A stretch of 39,559 nt of DNA from Myxococcales bacterium (GTDB taxonomy: Bacteria > Myxococcota_A > UBA796 > SXON01): assembly GCA_009692605.1 (NCBI GenBank), contig SHYV01000009.1, positions 1 through 39,559 of the forward strand, given 5' to 3'. Under the pieces are notes generated by a model. The model saw only the letters and a list, made by a program, of their open reading frames with translations. It did no database searches and was not told the DNA's origin. Numbering within the stretch: position 1 is the first letter of the stretch; each line of letters starts with the position of its first letter. Below are positions 33 to 9,373 of this stretch, piece after piece. The position numbers and the translations under genes were made by a program.

Positions 33-1607
33 ATGAACGAAAACGACACCTCCTACACGTCCGACGACGAGATCAACGCTGAGCTGGCCGCTTTCGAGGC
101 GGCGGAGGCCAAGAAGCTGGGCATTGACAACAGCACCCAGCACTGGAGTGACCCGGTCCCCTCCGGCTTCACGTTGAAGGAGCGCCCCCACACCACGTTG
201 CTCGTCTCCGGGCTCACGCTCGCCCACGATCAGTTCGTCGTCGCGGCGCTCTCCGGCATTGGCTACAAGGTCGAGGCGATGGAGGTTCCGAACCAGGAGT
301 CGCTCACCTTCGGCAAGGAATACGGCAACCGCGGCCAGTGCAACCCGACGTATTTCACGGTGGGAAATCTGGTCAAACACCTTGCCCATTTGCGCGACAA
401 GCAGGGGATCCCGACCGAGGAGATCATCCGCGATTTCGTCTTCCTGACCGCGGGTGCGTGCGGCCCCTGCAGGTTCGGCACCTACGTGACTGAGTACCGC
501 AAGGCGCTTCGGGACTCCGGCTTCGACGGCTTTCGCGTCATGCTCTTCCAGCAGCAGGGCGGGCTGAAGCAGGCGACTGGCGAAAAGGCGGGGCTCGAGC
601 TCAATCCGGCGTTCTTCCTCGCCTTGCTCAAGGCGCTGTTCACCGCTGACATCCTAAACCTGCTCGGCTACAGGATCCGCCCCTACGAGGTGGAGCCCGG
701 CAGCACCGACGCCGCGATCCTGCGTTGCAAGGCGATCATCAACAAGAGCCTCGCCGAGCAGACCCCGCTTGTCTTTGCCCTGCACAAGGTGTCGAAGGAG
801 CTGAAGGCGGTGAAGGTGGACAAGGTCCAGCCGAAGCCGAAGGTGATGATCATCGGTGAGTTCTGGGCCATGACCACCGAGGGGGACGGCAACTACCACC
901 TCCAGCGCTTCCTGGAACAGGAGGGCGCCGAGGTCGACATCCAGCCGCTGATCAACTGGATCCTGTTCATGATCTGGGAGAACACCCACGACACCAAGGA
1001 GCGGATGACGCTGCGCAAGGACGACGCTGGGCGCAAGGGCCTGGAGGGCACGAACCCCTGGAAGAAGCTCGCGCTCTTGAAAGCGGCGGACGTCACCATT
1101 CGGGCGGTCTTTCAGGGCATGGCGTACACCGCCGGCCTGAACGGCTACCACCTGCCCGACATGGACGAGATCGCGTCTCTCGCGAGCGACCACTACGACA
1201 ACAACGTGCGGGGCGGTGAGGGGCACATGGAGATCGGGAAGGTCATCCAGTCCGTTCAGAAGAAGAAGGTGCACATGGTCGTCAGCGTGAAGCCGTTTGG
1301 TTGTATGCCCTCGTCCGGAGTGTCCGACGGCGTGCAGTCGTTGATCACGCAGCGGTACCCCGAGCTGATCTTCTGCCCGATCGAGACGTCCGGCGATGGT
1401 GCGACCAACGTGCAGAGCCGCGTGCAGATGATGCTGTTCCGCGCCCGTCAGCGCGCGAAGGAGGAGCTTCAGGCCTCGCTTGAGAAGCGGGGCATGTCGA
1501 TCGATGAGGCGAAGGCCAGGGCCAAGGCGAAGGGCTGGACCGCGCTTCGTCAGCCAAAGCACGCGGTGATCGGCACCGGCGCGAACATCGTCGAGCAGTT
1601 GGCGTAG
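33..1607 (+). CDS. 2-hydroxyacyl-CoA dehydratase activase-related FeS protein
   Basis: This 524-residue cytoplasmic protein resembles the C-terminal (DUF2229/HgdB-like) part of large 2-hydroxyglutaryl-CoA dehydratase activase proteins. That family handles radical dehydration of acyl-CoAs and binds [4Fe-4S] clusters. Visible support is a set of conserved cysteines in typical settings: C103 (GQCNPTYFTVG), C143 and C146 (GACGPC), C424 (KPFGCMPSSGVSDG) and C448 (FCPIETSGDG). The BadF/BcrA-type ATPase that normally accompanies this module would have to lie upstream of the window. The ATG is preceded by a GGAG ribosome site 8-11 bases before it. The N-terminal 40 residues are acidic and not family-like. 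The substrate is unknown; a role as an activase subunit rather than a dehydratase is possible. Confidence 0.75.
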   Translation: MNENDTSYTSDDEINAELAAFEAAEAKKLGIDNSTQHWSDPVPSGFTLKERPHTTLLVSGLTLAHDQFVVAALSGIGYKVEAMEVPNQESLTFGKEYGNRGQCNPTYFTVGNLVKHLAHLRDKQGIPTEEIIRDFVFLTAGACGPCRFGTYVTEYRKALRDSGFDGFRVMLFQQQGGLKQATGEKAGLELNPAFFLALLKALFTADILNLLGYRIRPYEVEPGSTDAAILRCKAIINKSLAEQTPLVFALHKVSKELKAVKVDKVQPKPKVMIIGEFWAMTTEGDGNYHLQRFLEQEGAEVDIQPLINWILFMIWENTHDTKERMTLRKDDAGRKGLEGTNPWKKLALLKAADVTIRAVFQGMAYTAGLNGYHLPDMDEIASLASDHYDNNVRGGEGHMEIGKVIQSVQKKKVHMVVSVKPFGCMPSSGVSDGVQSLITQRYPELIFCPIETSGDGATNVQSRVQMMLFRARQRAKEELQASLEKRGMSIDEAKARAKAKGWTALRQPKHAVIGTGANIVEQLA

Positions 1608-1619
1608 CGCAGGCAGCCA

Positions 1620-2543
1620 ATGAGCGTACCTGATGGGGGCCAGAGTGGTCAGGCCCCCCGCTCCGCGGCATCGGGCTACGCTCTTGGGGTGATCGCCCTC
1701 CTGCTCCTGCCCCTCTGGGGCGCCGCTTGCGCTCCCGAGGACGACGCTGCGGTGCGTCGCGCGCACCGTTCGCCCCCGCCGGACACCGCGACGGACACCG
1801 ACGCGGACACCGACGCGGACACCGACGCGGACACCGACGCAGACACCGACGCAGACACCGACACCGACGCGGATCCGTGGGCGTCGGACGACACCACGAA
1901 CGAGTGGACCTTTGGCATCGACGTGTCCCACTGGCAGGGGACGATCGACTGGCCGAAGGTCGCGGCGGACGGCATCGACTTCGCTGTCGCCAAGGTCACC
2001 GAGGGCGACTACTACGTCGACGACGAATTCGAGAACAACTACGCTGGCGCGCGCGCCGCGGGCCTCATGTTCGGGGGCTATGTCTTCGCGATCCCGGACG
2101 ACTCCGGCGGCGCCACACAGGCCGACTTCTTCGTGAACAACGGCGGCGGCTGGGTGGACGACGGGTGGACGCTCCCCGGGGTGCTCGACATCGAGTACAA
2201 CCCGTATGGCGACACCTGCTACGACCTCTCCCGCAGCGAGATGAAGCAGTGGATCACCGACTTCAATGACGAGTACATCGCGCAGACGGGCCGTGCGCCG
2301 CTGGTCTACACCAATCAGGATTGGTGGAACTCCTGCGTCGGCGACAGCGACCTGCCTGATACCAACCCGCTGTGGGTGGCCTACTGGTCCTCGGGCAGCC
2401 CGGCGCTGCCGTCGGGGTGGTCGGACTACGTGGTCTGGCAGTACACGGACGATGAGTCGGTGAACGGCGTGGGAGGCGGAGTGGACGGGGATCAGTTCCA
2501 CGGCTCCCAACGCGCGCTGCGTGCGTTCGCGCTGAACGAGTGA
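1620..2543 (+). CDS. GH25 lysozyme-like lipoprotein with Asp-Thr linker
   Basis: A predicted surface lipoprotein with a glycoside hydrolase family 25 (Chalaropsis-type muramidase) domain, expected to cleave peptidoglycan. Residues 1-37 form a signal peptide ending in LWGAAC, a slightly atypical lipobox with Cys37. Residues 59-85 are a low-complexity Asp/Thr/Ala linker. The catalytic domain starts at about residue 98 with FGIDVSHWQ (Asp101) and carries LDIEYN (Asp190, Glu192), the acidic residues expected at the GH25 active site. The domain runs to the C terminus (VWQYTDD near the end), so it looks complete. The gene begins 12 bases after the preceding stop. Self-wall remodelling or an attack on other bacteria are both possible. 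Confidence 0.88.
   Translation: MSVPDGGQSGQAPRSAASGYALGVIALLLLPLWGAACAPEDDAAVRRAHRSPPPDTATDTDADTDADTDADTDADTDADTDTDADPWASDDTTNEWTFGIDVSHWQGTIDWPKVAADGIDFAVAKVTEGDYYVDDEFENNYAGARAAGLMFGGYVFAIPDDSGGATQADFFVNNGGGWVDDGWTLPGVLDIEYNPYGDTCYDLSRSEMKQWITDFNDEYIAQTGRAPLVYTNQDWWNSCVGDSDLPDTNPLWVAYWSSGSPALPSGWSDYVVWQYTDDESVNGVGGGVDGDQFHGSQRALRAFALNE
1794..1874 (+). repeat. 12-bp tandem repeat encoding the DTDA linker
   Basis: A tandem array of the 12-base unit gacaccgacgcg, about six copies with one-base variants, codes for the Asp-Thr-Asp-Ala linker between lipid anchor and GH25 domain. Copy-number changes would stay in frame and only change linker length. Confidence 0.9.
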
Positions 2544-2573
2544 GCTCTGCGGCCGAGCAGGCCCAGCGCCGTC

Positions 2574-2732
2574 TCAGTCCAAGATTGCGCAGACGGTTTC
2601 GCAGTCCTTCTCTGCGATCGCGCGGGTGTAGTCGGTCTCCGCCGCGCAGTTCTCCTCGTAGTCGGTACGCTCTTCGTCGGTCGTCAGGGCAGAGTAATGA
2701 AACTTCGTCTCCCGCAGGCAGGACGCGCGCAT
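2574..2732 (-). CDS. Possible small Cys-containing protein (52 aa)
   Basis: A short frame between two convergent genes. The predicted peptide starts MRASCLRETK and ends CETVCAILD. It is acidic, contains four cysteines, and its codons favour G/C in third position, so it reads like a protein rather than an antisense shadow. An alternative GTG start lies at 2759. No ribosome site is obvious and I recognise no family. It could instead be the tail of a decayed gene, because a short direct repeat lies just upstream. Confidence 0.3.
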   Translation of the reverse strand: MRASCLRETKFHYSALTTDEERTDYEENCAAETDYTRAIAEKDCETVCAILD

Positions 2733-2771
2733 GACCGCTGGCAAGGGGTGGGGACACACGCGGCCAGAGGC

Positions 2772-2806
2772 AGGAGGGACAGGGACAGGAGGGACAGGGA
2801 CAGGAC
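2772..2806. repeat. Two-copy 15-bp direct repeat
   Basis: The unit aggagggacagggac occurs twice back to back (2772-2786, 2787-2801), followed by a partial copy. It lies in the otherwise empty 2733-2860 stretch before the 3' end of the membrane-protein gene. No function is apparent; replication slippage is a sufficient explanation. Confidence 0.75.
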
Positions 2807-2860
2807 GGGCCGGCTAGGGATGAACATGGCGTGATCGTAGCACGTGGGGCCTGCTGAAGA

Positions 2861-4504
2861 TCAAGGCTGCGCAGCCCAGATCGCCCCGCTCCCGTCGGTG
2901 ATAGTGGGCTCCCCCAGCGCGGCTGTCGCCCTCGTCACTGCCTCGCTCGTCGGAGCTCCAAGCGCGACGAGCACCGAGCCCAGCGGGAGCGCGCGCAGGT
3001 CGGGTGGCGCCGGTCGGTCGGGGTTCGCGAGCAGGGCGCGCCCGTGGGCTCGCTGGTCGAAGTAGAGCTTTTGGGGGTGAACTCCGGGCCCGTTCGCTCC
3101 GATCACGCTGATGGGCCCTGACGGCAGCTCGGCGAGGCGCCCGTAGATCGAGGGCGTGTCCGGCGAGGTGCCGGGCAGGGCCAGCGGCCCCGGGGCCAGC
3201 CACGCCGCGTCGGCGTACACCGCCGCGAGCGCCAGCGGCACGATCAGGATGCCCCCCCGCCACAACCGCCTCCTCATCCGGTCGATCCCCGCCGCCGCCA
3301 GCACGACGCACGCCACCTGACCGAGCAGCCACAGGCGGGCGTGATGGTTGAAGCTCCCGGCGAGAGGCAATTGGTCGAGCGCTCGGGCGACGAGATTGGC
3401 GGTCGGGGTCACGCCGTCGTCGCCGACCAGCGGGTGCCCCGCGACGGAAGGGTGGACGCCGACGCTCCACGCTGCGAGGCCGAGCGCCGGGAGCGTCAGC
3501 GGCCCGCTGCCGACCAGCGCCAGCGCGAGCGTCGGATAGCCGATCCAGGTCGGATGCTCCCTCACGAACGCGGTCCCGAGCGGCTCCTCGCCGAAGTGGA
3601 TCCCCCCGGCGCTGTCCTGACCCGGGGCGACAAAGCTCGCCACATCGGAGGCGCGCCACGGGTTCACCCTCCACAGGGGTTCTTGCTGCACGGGCGGTGC
3701 TCCAAAACGGTGCCCCTCGCCCGAGAGCCTGGACTGAAAGGGCAGCACGGCGGGCAATGCGATTCCAACCGCGAGCGCCGCGGCCAGCACCACAGGCGGC
3801 AAGGTCAGGTTTCGTTGGGCGGCCGCCGCCCGCCAGGCCCCGACCCCGAGCGCCGCCGCTGCGCCGAACCAGGCGAGGTACAGCCCGCACCACGCTGAGA
3901 GGCCCAGCAGGATCCCCGCCCCCAGCACGCGCGCTCTGGCCCGAGCCGCGGAGCCATCCATCGGGCCGCGTGCGAGCTCCGCCGTCCCCGCCCACAACAG
4001 CGCCAACGCGAGCAGGACGAGCCCTATGGCGCCGTCCTCGGTGAGCCCGCTCCACAGCGATCCGCGCCAGATCGGGGACAGCACCACGCCGACCGCGACG
4101 AAGGAGGGGGACAGGCCGGCAGCCCGGCCGAGCGCGGCCCCGCCCAGCGCCGCGAGCACGATCCAGCCCACCACGAGCAGGTTCCACGCATCGGTCAAGC
4201 CGAACGCCCGCGCCAGCCCGCCGGCGATCCAGGTCGGAAGCGGGTCGATGACGTGCCGGTCAGCTGTCCCGGCCGCCAGCGATGTGCCCGTCGGCCACGC
4301 CGGCCACTGCTCCGCTGTCCACGCCTGCACCCATGCGTGACCGTAGGTCTCTGCGCGGGGTGAGCCCACCAGCTCGCCGCGCGCGATCGCGGGCCCGGTG
4401 AGCACCGCTGCCAAGGCCATTCCCAGCACCCCGTCCCGCCACCGGCACAGCGGTCGCCCCCCCCGGCTGGCCCCGCTCGAGGAGGCCCGGTTGGCCAATG
4501 TCAC
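2861..4504 (-). CDS. Polytopic membrane protein, GT-C/YfhO-like
   Basis: A 547-residue integral membrane protein with roughly ten hydrophobic helices and a soluble C-terminal tail. Its layout (first helix, a loop with RAETYGHAWVQAW, then DPLPTWIAGGLARAFG and a helix rich in small residues) resembles GT-C glycosyltransferases or YfhO-type proteins. These transfer sugars from polyprenyl-phosphate donors outside the membrane. The chosen start is a GTG at 4504, whose GTGA overlaps the stop of the upstream radical SAM gene, which indicates translational coupling. An upstream in-frame start at 4594 would overlap that gene by 94 bases and adds a non-membrane, shadow-like extension. The acceptor is unknown; the two partner genes suggest modification of a peptide or lipid. 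The family call is tentative. Confidence 0.72.
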   Translation of the reverse strand: MTLANRASSSGASRGGRPLCRWRDGVLGMALAAVLTGPAIARGELVGSPRAETYGHAWVQAWTAEQWPAWPTGTSLAAGTADRHVIDPLPTWIAGGLARAFGLTDAWNLLVVGWIVLAALGGAALGRAAGLSPSFVAVGVVLSPIWRGSLWSGLTEDGAIGLVLLALALLWAGTAELARGPMDGSAARARARVLGAGILLGLSAWCGLYLAWFGAAAALGVGAWRAAAAQRNLTLPPVVLAAALAVGIALPAVLPFQSRLSGEGHRFGAPPVQQEPLWRVNPWRASDVASFVAPGQDSAGGIHFGEEPLGTAFVREHPTWIGYPTLALALVGSGPLTLPALGLAAWSVGVHPSVAGHPLVGDDGVTPTANLVARALDQLPLAGSFNHHARLWLLGQVACVVLAAAGIDRMRRRLWRGGILIVPLALAAVYADAAWLAPGPLALPGTSPDTPSIYGRLAELPSGPISVIGANGPGVHPQKLYFDQRAHGRALLANPDRPAPPDLRALPLGSVLVALGAPTSEAVTRATAALGEPTITDGSGAIWAAQP

Positions 4505-5700
4505 CGCTGGCCATCCGAGGGGTTTCTGGCTGGGGCGGTCCAGGCATCGGTGGGGGCTGGCACCGGCCCCTGGCCCTGTGAGCAGCGCGTGCACGCGGCA
4601 TGGGGTGCTCCGTCAAACATCCCGACGCGCAACGCCGTCATCTCTGGACCGGTCCAGATCGCCTCGAACGACCGCTCGTGGAGGTTCCCGACGTACGGCC
4701 GCCCCTGCACACAGCAGGGGGAGACCGCACCCCCCGCGTGCAGGTAGGCACGCCCCCAGAGAAAGCTGCACCGAGCGCCCAGCCCGGAACGAAGCTCCCA
4801 CGCGCGGACCGCCGCGCGCGCCAGAGCCGCCCTGAGCGCGGAGCGCCGGCGTGCGCCGCCGCGCAGGGAGGACAGGACCCGTCGGGCCGCCGCCCCCGGA
4901 TCCTGTCTGGGAGAGAGCGGCGGCTCGCCGGGCAGATCAAGCCCTACACCGCGCCGCACCGCCATGGCCCGGGCGGCCGCCAGGCGTTCCTCGACCCTGT
5001 CCGGAACAGCGTGCAGTGACAAGCCCAGCAACGACGGATCGAGCACCTCGAGCCAACAGCACGCGACGCGGTCGGCCCCGAGCCGCGAGGCCAGATCCAC
5101 CAGATCGGGGAGCTCGTCGATGTTCGCGGTCGAAAGCGTCATCGCGAGCATGAATTCGGGGCGCGATCCGGCTGGCCGCGCCAGGCGCGCCCGCTGGAAG
5201 CGCTGGAGGTTCTCGAGGATCCTGGCGTGACGGGCCCCGGCGCGGATCCGCTCGACCGTCTCCGGGCGCGCACCGTCCAACGAGGCGATGAGGAGCCCGA
5301 GTCGCGGGAGCAGCCGATCGAGCAGCCCGGGGCGATGGAGAGCGGTCGCGTTGGTGACGAGCTCGGTGGTGATGTCGAGGGTGTTCACTCGGTCGAGAAA
5401 ATCGAGGAAGTGCGGGGCGATCGTCGGCTCGCCCGCCACGCTGAACGAGAGCCGTGAGACCCGGGGCAGCACCTGGTCAACGATCCGGTCGAACAAGGCG
5501 AGGGGCATGTCTACGCCGGAGCGGGTCGACCCGACCAGGTGTTGCGCGCACCAGATGCACTCGAGGTTGCACCGCAGCGTGTTTTCGACGTTGATCCAGG
5601 TCGGCCAGGGCGGCGGCACGCGCCCGAGCGTCTCGACGACTTTGGCGGTCGGGACCGCGGGATGCGTGGTCGGAGTCCGGGTCGTCGGCTTCAGGGTCAT
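4501..5700 (-). CDS. Radical SAM/SPASM domain enzyme
   Basis: A 399-residue radical S-adenosylmethionine enzyme. The N-terminal barrel carries the cluster motif C-x3-C-x2-C (Cys44, Cys48, Cys51 in LRCNLECIWCAQH). It continues with the typical SAM-binding strand (SFSVAGEPTIAPHF) and a strand ending in LIASLDGA. The C-terminal region has a SPASM-like set of cysteines (GARCSFLWGR, VSPCC, then CTRC), which would bind auxiliary FeS clusters. SPASM enzymes commonly modify peptides or act in cofactor and sugar chemistry. The ATG at 5700 overlaps the hydrolase stop as ATGA, so the upstream open frame to 6237 is not coding. No short precursor peptide was found next to it. The substrate is unknown. Confidence 0.88.
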   Translation of the reverse strand: MTLKPTTRTPTTHPAVPTAKVVETLGRVPPPWPTWINVENTLRCNLECIWCAQHLVGSTRSGVDMPLALFDRIVDQVLPRVSRLSFSVAGEPTIAPHFLDFLDRVNTLDITTELVTNATALHRPGLLDRLLPRLGLLIASLDGARPETVERIRAGARHARILENLQRFQRARLARPAGSRPEFMLAMTLSTANIDELPDLVDLASRLGADRVACCWLEVLDPSLLGLSLHAVPDRVEERLAAARAMAVRRGVGLDLPGEPPLSPRQDPGAAARRVLSSLRGGARRRSALRAALARAAVRAWELRSGLGARCSFLWGRAYLHAGGAVSPCCVQGRPYVGNLHERSFEAIWTGPEMTALRVGMFDGAPHAACTRCSQGQGPVPAPTDAWTAPARNPSDGQR

Positions 5701-6500
5701 GCGGTCGATGCGATCTCGACGATCCGTGCGATCACCCAGTCCGGGTCGTCGAGCGGCAGGTCGTGTCCGGCGTCGGGGTGCACGTGCAGGGCGGCCCCGA
5801 GGCGGGCCGCGAGCGCTCTGGAGATCGCCGGGCTGCAGAGCCGGTCGCCCTCCGAGCACATCACCGTCACCGGAATCGACAGCGACGCGGGAGCGTTGGT
5901 TTGGGATGCCGCCCACAATTGGCGAACGAGCACGTCCACGCCGATCGGCACCTCGCGTGCGAAGCCGGCGAACTCGGCGGCCTGCGCCCGACCGTGCGGG
6001 GTGTTGCAGACGAGCCCCAGTATCCGCGCCTCGCGCGCCTCCGGGTCGGCGCCGAGCAGCGCACTCGGAAGCGCCGCGAGGAGCGTACGGAGCGCCTCGG
6101 GGGAAAAGCGTTGGAAGGTGCTCCCCAGATCCTTGGTGGACGTGTTGCACACCGCGACGTGGGCGAAGTCCTGCGGGTGCGCCTTCGCCCACGCCATCGC
6201 GATCATGCCGCCGAACGAGGGGGCGAGGATACCCCACGCCCCCTCGCCTCGCTCGGCAATGAACCTGTCGCGCAGGTCGGCGACGACCCCTGCGATGGAG
6301 CTGGGCGAGGGGCGGTCACGCTCCGTGCCTACTCCGGGAAGGTCCAGGCTGAGCACCGGGCCGCGAGTGCTCTCGGCCAACCGTTCCGGGAACGACCCCC
6401 AGTGTCGCCGTTCCCGCACCAACCCGCGCAGGAGCAACCAACCGAGCGTTTGACCCGGCTTCTGGGAACTGAATGACGAAATCTCCTGACCTTTGGACAT
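5697..6500 (-). CDS. Alpha/beta hydrolase
   Basis: A 267-residue alpha/beta-hydrolase. The nucleophile elbow is APSFGG (Ser95), where the usual first Gly is replaced by Ala. The acid is probably the Asp in CSEGDRL and the base the His in DAGHDLPL. The layout resembles BioH/MenH-like esterases with a small cap. The start at 6500 was chosen because GGAGAGG precedes it by a few bases and translation from 6605 would add a non-conserved basic stretch. It is the first gene of a coupled trio with the radical SAM and membrane genes. Its start codon coincides with the -35 element of the divergent lipoprotein promoter. A thioesterase or a peptidase-like role is possible. Confidence 0.85.
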   Translation of the reverse strand: MSKGQEISSFSSQKPGQTLGWLLLRGLVRERRHWGSFPERLAESTRGPVLSLDLPGVGTERDRPSPSSIAGVVADLRDRFIAERGEGAWGILAPSFGGMIAMAWAKAHPQDFAHVAVCNTSTKDLGSTFQRFSPEALRTLLAALPSALLGADPEAREARILGLVCNTPHGRAQAAEFAGFAREVPIGVDVLVRQLWAASQTNAPASLSIPVTVMCSEGDRLCSPAISRALAARLGAALHVHPDAGHDLPLDDPDWVIARIVEIASTA

Positions 6501-6522
6501 TCGGGGGGCCTCTCCGTACTCT
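6494..6522 (+). promoter_or_regulatory. Sigma-70-type promoter of first lipoprotein gene
   Basis: TGGACA and TACTCT are separated by 17 bases, and the ATG lies 22 bases further on. The element aligns, with small gaps, to the better promoter upstream of the downstream paralog (7933-7961). Its -35 box overlaps the start codon of the divergent hydrolase, so the two genes may interfere. Confidence 0.5.
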
Positions 6523-6544
6523 ATCTTTCCCAGCTTGCTGATCC

Positions 6545-7879
6545 ATGATCGTGTCGCCCTTACGTTGTAGTCTCGCCCCGGTTGCCACCGCCGCCTTCGC
6601 CGCACTTCTGGCGGGCTGCAGTCCCAAAGTGGTGGACGAGGTGACCGACACCGCCATCGGCCACGACAGCGGGGACACGAGCACCGCCGAGGACACCGGG
6701 GACGTCGACACCGGCGTGCTCACCGGCGTTCATGGGACCGTCGAGGGCACCGTCTACCTGCAGCTCTACACCACGGATGAGGGTGGAGACATGGTGTTGA
6801 TGGACTGGGACGAGACCTACGGCGGATACCCGTTTGGTTCAGTCTTCGTCGCGGCCTACAGCGCGGACGATGACGGCTACCAGTCCTTCTACGATCAGCA
6901 CGTCATCACGTCTCCGACCGTCTCCCCGGCCCCCGGCGGGGATCCGTATGGACTCGACATCGACGTCGATGACCTCGACAGCGTGAACATTTTTGCCACC
7001 GTCGACTACGTCGGCGATGGCATCATCGGCACCGGCGAACCGACCGGCGCGCACCCCAACGAGGTGACGGTCACCAGCAACGGCACGGTCAACGAGGTCG
7101 ACATCACGGTGATGGTCCCCTGGGCCGGGAGCGGCGGCGGCGGTGGGTCTGGGTGCACTGATGTCGTGGACATCAGCGGTACCGCGAGCGTTTCGTCTTC
7201 CTGGACGGATGGCGACTTGGCTGCCATGCTCTTCGACACCAACGGCGCGGGGCCCTACACCGGGGTCCGGGTCAGCCCTACCGCGACCTCGGACGGCGCT
7301 GAGGCCGCATATGACCTCCCGGTCTGCGCCAACTATGGCGACTACCAGCTACTTGGAGCGTGGAACTCCGACGGGAACGGGCTGTTCGACCCGGCCGACA
7401 CCTGGGGTTCGTACGTCATCGACGACTCCACGGACGGAAACCCGATCTCGATACGCGAGGAGTCGCTACCTGACCACGACATCCTCATCCCGTTCGGCGA
7501 ATACCGACCGGCGGTTGTGCCGTTCGTCTCGATCTCCGGTACGCTCACCTCCAGTGAGGACTGGTCCGCCTACTCCGAGGTCTACGTGGCGGCGCTGAAG
7601 TACCGTCCGCAGGGCGACACCTCGGTTGGCGAGCTCAAGGAAGGGTACGACATCATGGAGTGGTCCACGGCCGAGCTGGCGACGGACACCGCATTGGAGT
7701 ACCACGTGGAGGTCCCGGCCAATACCATCATTTACCTCTGGGCCTACGCCGACATCGACGGGGACGGCATCCTCAACGAGGTCAGCGACCCGGTGGCCAG
7801 CCTGAAAAACTCCACCGGTCGAACGGTCACCGGCTCGACCTCGCAGTCCGGGCAGGACCTTCAACTCACCGTACCCTGA
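6545..7879 (+). CDS. Repeat-domain lipoprotein, paralog A
   Basis: A 444-residue outer-surface lipoprotein of unknown function. The signal peptide ends in LLAGC (Cys25). It is followed by an acidic Asp/Thr/Ser linker of about 35 residues. The mature part appears to hold three similar beta-rich modules, the second and third beginning ISGTASVSS and ISGTLTSS. Each module contains or ends in an Asp-rich loop such as DIDGDGILNE, reminiscent of calcium-binding EF-hand or dockerin-type loops. A glycine stretch (GSGGGGGSG) separates modules one and two. The next gene is a close paralog over its whole length, so the pair arose by tandem duplication. Calcium binding and surface adhesion are inference; no enzymatic motif is visible. 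Confidence 0.82.
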   Translation: MIVSPLRCSLAPVATAAFAALLAGCSPKVVDEVTDTAIGHDSGDTSTAEDTGDVDTGVLTGVHGTVEGTVYLQLYTTDEGGDMVLMDWDETYGGYPFGSVFVAAYSADDDGYQSFYDQHVITSPTVSPAPGGDPYGLDIDVDDLDSVNIFATVDYVGDGIIGTGEPTGAHPNEVTVTSNGTVNEVDITVMVPWAGSGGGGGSGCTDVVDISGTASVSSSWTDGDLAAMLFDTNGAGPYTGVRVSPTATSDGAEAAYDLPVCANYGDYQLLGAWNSDGNGLFDPADTWGSYVIDDSTDGNPISIREESLPDHDILIPFGEYRPAVVPFVSISGTLTSSEDWSAYSEVYVAALKYRPQGDTSVGELKEGYDIMEWSTAELATDTALEYHVEVPANTIIYLWAYADIDGDGILNEVSDPVASLKNSTGRTVTGSTSQSGQDLQLTVP

Positions 7880-7984: not shown

Positions 7985-9373
7985 ATGATCCGTAGCAACG
8001 CGCGTACCCCGCTCTCTCTCGTTCTCCTCGGGGTCGCTTCGGTGCTCGTGGGCTGCGCCCATGACAAGCTCCTCGACACCGTAGCCGACGAGGACACCGC
8101 CGTCGGCCACGACGACGACACGGGCGATACCAGCACCGCCGAGGACACCGGTGACGTCGACACGGGGGTGCTGTCGGGCGTTCACGGGACCGTCGAGGGC
8201 ACCGTCTATCTGCAGCTCTACACGATCAATCAGAACGGCGACATGGATCTCATGGACTGGGAGGAGACCTACGGTGGGTACCCCTTCGGGCCGGTTTTCG
8301 TAGCTGCCTACTCTACCGATGAGGACGGGCACGACACGTACTACGACCAGAACGTCATCACCGCGCCCACGGTCTCCCCTGCGCCGGGCGGCGACCCGTA
8401 CGGGTTGGAGATCGAAGTGGACGACGTTGACAGCGTGCAGATCTACGCGAGCGTGGACTATGCCAACGACGGCATCCTGAGCACCGCAGAGCCGACCGGG
8501 GCCTACCCGAGCGCGGTGACCGTCTCCAGCGACGGAACCGTCACCGGGATTGACATCACCGTCATGGTCCCCTGGGGCGGTGGCGGTGACGGTGGCGACG
8601 GGTGGGGCTACGGGAGCGGTGGGAGCGGCAGCGGGACCGGGACCGGCTGCGAGGACACCGTCGAGATGAGCGGCACGGTCACGATCTCCTCGACCTACCT
8701 GGAAGGGGACGTGGCTGCGTTGATCTACGATACGGCGGGCGCAGGCCCCTACGCACTGGACCGCGCGACCCCGACCGCGACCTCAGGCGGCGCGGAAGCT
8801 CCATTCAGCTTCAGCGGGTGCTCGAACGTCGGAGACTACAACCTGCTCGGGGTCTGGGATTCCAACGCCAACAGCCTGTTCGACCCGGCGGACCAGTGGG
8901 GGGCCTACGTCACCGATGGTGCGGTGGATGGCAATCCGATCACCATCGGCGACACGTCGATGACCGGCCTTGAGATCCTCGTGCCGTTCGGTGACTACCA
9001 GCCCAGCGTCGTCCCCTTCGTCTCGATCTCCGGCACGTTGACATCGTCTCAGGACTGGTCCACCTACGGCGACGTCTACGTTGCCGCGCTCAAGTACCGC
9101 CCCAACAGCGACCTCTCCGTCGCCGACCTGAAGGAAGGCTACGACATCATGGAGTGGTCGTCAGCCGAGCTCGGGGCGAGCAGCGCCTTGGAGTACCATG
9201 TCGAGGTTCCGGCCAACACCATCGTGTACATTTGGGCCTACGGCGACGTGGACGGCGACGGTATCCTCAACGAGGTGGGCGACCCCATTGCCAGCCTCAA
9301 CGACGCCTCGGGCCGCGCGGTGACTGGGTCCACCTCGCAGGACGGCGCGGACCTCAATCTGGACGTTCTGTAG
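7985..9373 (+). CDS. Repeat-domain lipoprotein, paralog B
   Basis: A 462-residue lipoprotein closely similar to the gene just upstream. Shared segments include GVHGTVEGTVYLQLYT, PTVSPAPGGDPYGL and KEGYDIMEWS. The signal peptide ends in LVGC (Cys24), followed by an acidic linker containing DTGDTSTAEDTGD. The glycine-rich joint between modules one and two is longer than in paralog A (residues around 199-219). The second-module Asp loop is weaker here (SNANSLFDPAD), while the last (DVDGDGILNE) is intact. It has its own strong promoter. The gene ends in two consecutive TAG codons, immediately before a patatin-like frame. Function is unknown. Confidence 0.82.
   Translation: MIRSNARTPLSLVLLGVASVLVGCAHDKLLDTVADEDTAVGHDDDTGDTSTAEDTGDVDTGVLSGVHGTVEGTVYLQLYTINQNGDMDLMDWEETYGGYPFGPVFVAAYSTDEDGHDTYYDQNVITAPTVSPAPGGDPYGLEIEVDDVDSVQIYASVDYANDGILSTAEPTGAYPSAVTVSSDGTVTGIDITVMVPWGGGGDGGDGWGYGSGGSGSGTGTGCEDTVEMSGTVTISSTYLEGDVAALIYDTAGAGPYALDRATPTATSGGAEAPFSFSGCSNVGDYNLLGVWDSNANSLFDPADQWGAYVTDGAVDGNPITIGDTSMTGLEILVPFGDYQPSVVPFVSISGTLTSSQDWSTYGDVYVAALKYRPNSDLSVADLKEGYDIMEWSSAELGASSALEYHVEVPANTIVYIWAYGDVDGDGILNEVGDPIASLNDASGRAVTGSTSQDGADLNLDVL

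Follow-up and report, generated by a model that had tools for sequence, protein, structure and literature searches.

Three overlapping genes for a hydrolase, a twitch-type radical SAM enzyme and a GT-C-fold membrane protein are very likely a lineage-specific gene string rather than a conserved pathway

Do three genes joined stop codon to start codon also work together? The question is raised by three minus-strand open reading frames (ORFs), read in the order hydrolase, radical SAM enzyme, membrane protein, whose coordinates were checked by translation (Table 1). The window, by which we mean the whole stretch of DNA analyzed here, is the entire contig G000:C131 (39,559 nucleotides). It comes from a genome of 3.9 Mb in 186 contigs, 79% complete and evidently metagenome-assembled, as are its relatives. 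The original prediction described the three genes as overlapping through ATGA and GTGA, and translation confirmed both overlaps. On sequence grounds all three ORFs are real genes, since each has homologues with intact frames and conserved catalytic residues. A promoter and terminator scan of positions 2500–6700 returned nothing informative. Elsewhere in the window, two paralogous lipoproteins encoded side by side (6545–7879 and 7985–9373) have D/T-rich linkers, lack a Pfam match and represent a tandem duplication.

Table 1. Features of the window, with the basis for each assignment.
Feature	Position	Strand	Basis
Conserved 524-aa protein	33-1607	+	Linked to the membrane protein gene on one contig in G001:C35 and G002:C252, with unchanged order and orientation
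Remnant of a ~142-aa lipoprotein gene; 52-61 aa cysteine-rich ORF (four cysteines)	2574-2759	-	Similarity to G013 lipoprotein
GT-C-fold polytopic membrane protein (by predicted fold), 547 aa, GTG start	2861-4504	-	AF2 fold and Foldseek
GTGA overlap, radical SAM stop / membrane protein start; genus synteny break begins here	4501-4504	-	Translation; gene order in relatives
Radical SAM enzyme with C-terminal twitch-type (four-cysteine) auxiliary Fe-S domain (by sequence pattern), 399 aa, ATG start	4501-5700	-	PF04055 and PF13186
ATGA overlap, hydrolase stop / radical SAM start	5697-5700	-	Translation
Alpha/beta-hydrolase-fold serine hydrolase, 267 aa, ATG start	5697-6500	-	Pfam Abhydrolase_6; S95-D219-H246 triad

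The middle gene product matched the Pfam models Radical_SAM (E 9.4e-12) and SPASM (E 5.2e-11). Its CX3CX2C core motif is formed by C44, C48 and C51, which were kept in at least 90% of 24 homologues, as were C311, C329, C370 and C373. The latter cysteines form the C-terminal pattern C311-X12-G324-X4-C329 followed by C370-X2-C373, and no cysteine occurs past residue 373. A full SPASM domain is defined by seven cysteines in the arrangement CX9-15GX4C-gap-CX2CX5CX3C-gap-C (PMC6231123), and a twitch domain is a shortened SPASM domain with a single auxiliary cluster (PMC9012708). Because the SPASM cysteines stop after the fourth of seven, the pattern identifies the auxiliary domain as twitch type and not full SPASM, with cysteines for one predicted auxiliary cluster. 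The assignments made earlier, a hydrolase, a radical SAM enzyme and in particular a GT-C-like protein (the last by fold prediction), were supported, and the label SPASM had to be narrowed to a four-cysteine twitch type.

By sequence, the closest solved relatives of the radical SAM protein were PqqE, SkfB, BlsE, BtrN and DesII. Its AF2 model was closest in fold to SkfB, SuiB, DesII and BlsE, with PqqE and BtrN also matched. A named NCBIfam family was sought and rejected, as all scores lay far under the cut-offs and the best, for TIGR04317 (tungsten-cofactor maturase), reached 90.9 of 380 bits. The enzyme would cleave SAM at the cluster bound by C44, C48 and C51, and its one four-cysteine auxiliary cluster would, by analogy with BtrN, accept electrons in a two-electron oxidation of a small molecule.

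The membrane protein had no match in Pfam or NCBIfam, nor did its sequence match any entry in the PDB; hence a comparison of folds was used. For the AF2 model (pLDDT 89, pTM 0.91), the top Foldseek matches, at probability 1.00, were ArnT, AglB, STT3, AftA, AftD and Pmt4, and ALG12 and ALG9 were also found. The 23 best PDB matches were all GT-C enzymes or complexes containing them, with E values down to 8.5e-6. The model therefore supports a GT-C fold for this protein. GT-CA enzymes carry their catalytic Asp at the tip of the first juxtamembrane helix (PMC12041525). In the membrane protein, E52 was invariant across an alignment of 25 sequences and directly precedes a helix (residues 53–66) that follows TM1, which puts an acidic residue at the corresponding tip, as judged from its position in the AF2 model. 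Based on fold and position, the protein is probably a sugar transferase that uses a polyprenyl-phosphate donor and has E52 as the putative catalytic base. A search of 237 genomes of the phylum did not detect the protein family outside the class; 21 of the 22 genomes of the bacterial family carry it, as do other families of the order, and the protein is very likely an old, vertically inherited member of the bacterial family's gene set. There is one strongly conserved copy per genome, joined in many genomes of the order by several more distantly related paralogues (E 1e-15 to 1e-40).

The first gene of the string encodes a serine-type alpha/beta hydrolase (Abhydrolase_6, E 8.8e-16), in which the nucleophile, acid and histidine of the triad were invariant in an alignment of 12 homologues. 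The nearest solved structures were of PHB depolymerase, esterase and RutD-type folds. Orthologues with at least 50% identity were found in G001, G003, G009, G011, G013 and G036, with a split copy in G007. The protein would be a generic soluble serine hydrolase whose gene lies at other sites in the genomes of relatives.

The original prediction proposed that the trio forms a coupled pathway, suggested a look at the neighborhoods of relatives, and named a lack of co-conservation as the result that would speak against it. We searched the surroundings of 34 loci holding a relative of any one of the genes for the other two proteins (E <= 1e-3). A second trio gene was found at 0 of the 34 loci. The genome is metagenome-assembled and 79% complete, and the genus was represented by five genomes, so a close relative keeping the trio could exist. 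Nor was a conserved three-gene operon seen at any of these loci. No hydrolase orthologue with at least 50% identity was found in the genomes bearing the radical SAM gene (G017, G018, G010 and G006), and no radical SAM orthologue in the hydrolase-bearing G001, G003, G009, G011 and G013. Among the family genomes searched, the two occur together in this genome only, and with no locus of the 34 holding two of the genes, the proposed coupling fell on the very result that had been named against it.

Each gene has its own surroundings elsewhere. Radical SAM orthologues, full in G017, G018 and G010 and truncated in G006, all belong to genus g3 and share no common neighbors. The copy in G006 (contig C35, locus L028, ~8486–9042) is reduced to the C-terminal half with a gap; this decaying copy suggests a dispensable gene. 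More distant relatives (35–39% identity) were found in families f4 and f6; in one genus they adjoin genes for an acyl-CoA dehydrogenase and a B12-binding-domain-like protein, a context that differs from that of the trio. A search of 379 genomes of the phylum revealed no radical SAM orthologue outside the order, and none was found in plasmids. The membrane protein gene neighbors Sua5/TsaC and a small membrane gene in its own genus, and in genera g2 and g6 lies near M3 peptidase and arginine decarboxylase genes. In genus g3 (L099, L101–L103) the GT-C gene stands close behind contractile-injection-system-like genes (tail tube, LysM, gpD-like).

Gene order in the genus indicates where the string was put together. 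In G001 and G002, of the same genus, one contig carries the homologue of the 33–1607 protein (93% identical in G002), the membrane protein and Sua5/TsaC. In the present genome the order of the first two is kept and TsaC is on contig C126. Immediately upstream of the membrane protein gene the genus order is lost, and the radical SAM gene, then the hydrolase gene, occupy that place. The radical SAM protein was 69–79% identical to its g3 orthologues by search and 66–76% over the full alignment (three genomes), compared with 60–63% for CysS, 60–63% for the 33–1607 protein and about 47–52% for the membrane protein. None of the four other genomes in its genus carries an orthologue, and in the tree the protein was nested inside g3 with moderate rather than strong support (92/96). 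Given an identity to g3 above that of the comparison genes, the absence from its own genus and the position within g3, horizontal acquisition is the simplest reading, with this neighboring genus as the probable donor of the radical SAM gene. In G010 the orthologue lies near transposase-like and PIN-toxin-like genes (by eye from translations), which would fit mobility. Both here (1620–2543) and in G010 (L027), a GH25 lysozyme-type lipoprotein gene is located within ~2 kb of the radical SAM gene; the two lipoproteins are 50% identical and differ in relative orientation.

Overlapping gene pairs often encode interacting products. Exact 4-bp overlaps were counted in 6 of the 23 same-strand neighbor pairs of the window's gene list, the trio's two included; the other four pairs include CarD–CysS and RecA-neighbor–ComM, names that are a reading of the translations. 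The trio's overlaps are not above this background. Overlapping genes are as a rule coupled in translation (PMC6728339; PMC10666635), and the trio is probably co-transcribed and coupled in this way. Co-translation is thus plausible, but an overlap neither fixes protein ratios, as had been suggested for the trio, nor shows a shared function, and 4-bp overlaps join the unrelated genes CarD and CysS as well.

A peptide product might also explain the locus. As a cluster for a ribosomally made, modified peptide (RiPP), it would combine a radical SAM maturase, a processing hydrolase and an exporting membrane protein around an unseen precursor. The SPASM/twitch domain, the presence of SkfB and SuiB among the nearest folds and the four-cysteine small ORF all point that way. 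The predicted fold of the membrane protein, however, is that of a GT-C enzyme and not a transporter, and neither an N-terminal or adjacent RRE domain nor a precursor peptide was found for the radical SAM protein at this locus. In its AF2 model only ~35 poorly predicted residues stand ahead of the core, which leaves no RRE domain like that of SkfB. The small ORF was rejected as a precursor, being a truncated lipoprotein C-terminus: it is 49% identical to the C-terminal third of a 142-aa lipoprotein ORF of G013 (E 4.5e-8; 22 family genomes searched). In genomes with close radical SAM orthologues it was not found, bar one weak match (E 0.15), and a precursor-like gene is largely absent beside the g3 orthologues. 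The earlier remark that no precursor peptide is to be seen was upheld as far as tested, the lipoprotein remnant being the sole cysteine-rich small ORF near the trio and no small ORF there being conserved. GGACAGG-type repeats (~2770–2815) lie beside the remnant and the membrane protein gene. We regard a RiPP cluster as exceedingly improbable.

An error of assembly or binning that joined the radical SAM gene of a g3-type organism to this contig would account for its identity to g3 exceeding that of the flanking genes, in a genome that is metagenome-assembled. Against such an artefact, both junctions are in-frame 4-bp overlaps between intact ORFs, the GC and GC3 of the radical SAM gene match those of its neighbors, and the flanking genes on either side belong to the window's genus; we hold it to be highly improbable. 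Selection might instead have joined the genes by overlaps into a new lineage-specific pathway, in which a sugar or lipid-linked sugar is oxidized by the acquired radical SAM enzyme and transferred by the GT-C protein, with an ester trimmed off by the hydrolase. Two successive 4-bp overlaps without a gap would agree with this, as would the GT-C fold and the twitch enzymes BtrN and BlsE, which act on cyclitols or sugars and are both among the matches of the radical SAM protein. Yet the genes are not co-conserved, most family genomes with the membrane protein lack the radical SAM enzyme, and overlaps of this length are common in the window, which makes a new pathway very unlikely. A freshly assembled, species-specific form of it, with the acquired twitch enzyme oxidizing a sugar that the resident, undescribed GT-C family moves across the membrane and with the resident hydrolase coupled by its overlap, appears very unlikely. 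The trio is very likely not a conserved pathway but a string peculiar to this lineage, whose genes function independently of one another and are probably co-transcribed and coupled in translation. Each protein would act alone: a resident GT-C protein, an acquired, oxidizing radical SAM enzyme and a generic hydrolase.

Gapless stop–start overlaps are often taken as a sign of shared function; this string suggests that they can connect unrelated genes shortly after one of them has moved into a new location. The item worth keeping from the locus is the membrane protein, which represents a class-confined family of predicted GT-C fold without any Pfam or NCBIfam model. It resembles ArnT, PimE, AftA and AglB/STT3 in predicted fold and in having an invariant acid at the tip of the juxtamembrane helix that comes after TM1, and differs from these enzymes in carrying Glu for Asp and in the lack of a Pfam, NCBIfam or PDB sequence match. 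The radical SAM protein shares with BtrN, BlsE and SkfB the CX3CX2C core and the C-X12-G-X4-C and C-X2-C elements, with matching profile and fold. Unlike them it falls under every NCBIfam cut-off, adjoins no substrate gene and has no RRE domain. The hydrolase has the fold and S-D-H triad of PcaD-, MenH- and PHB-depolymerase-like alpha/beta hydrolases, whereas its scores lie far under the cut-off of every named subfamily.
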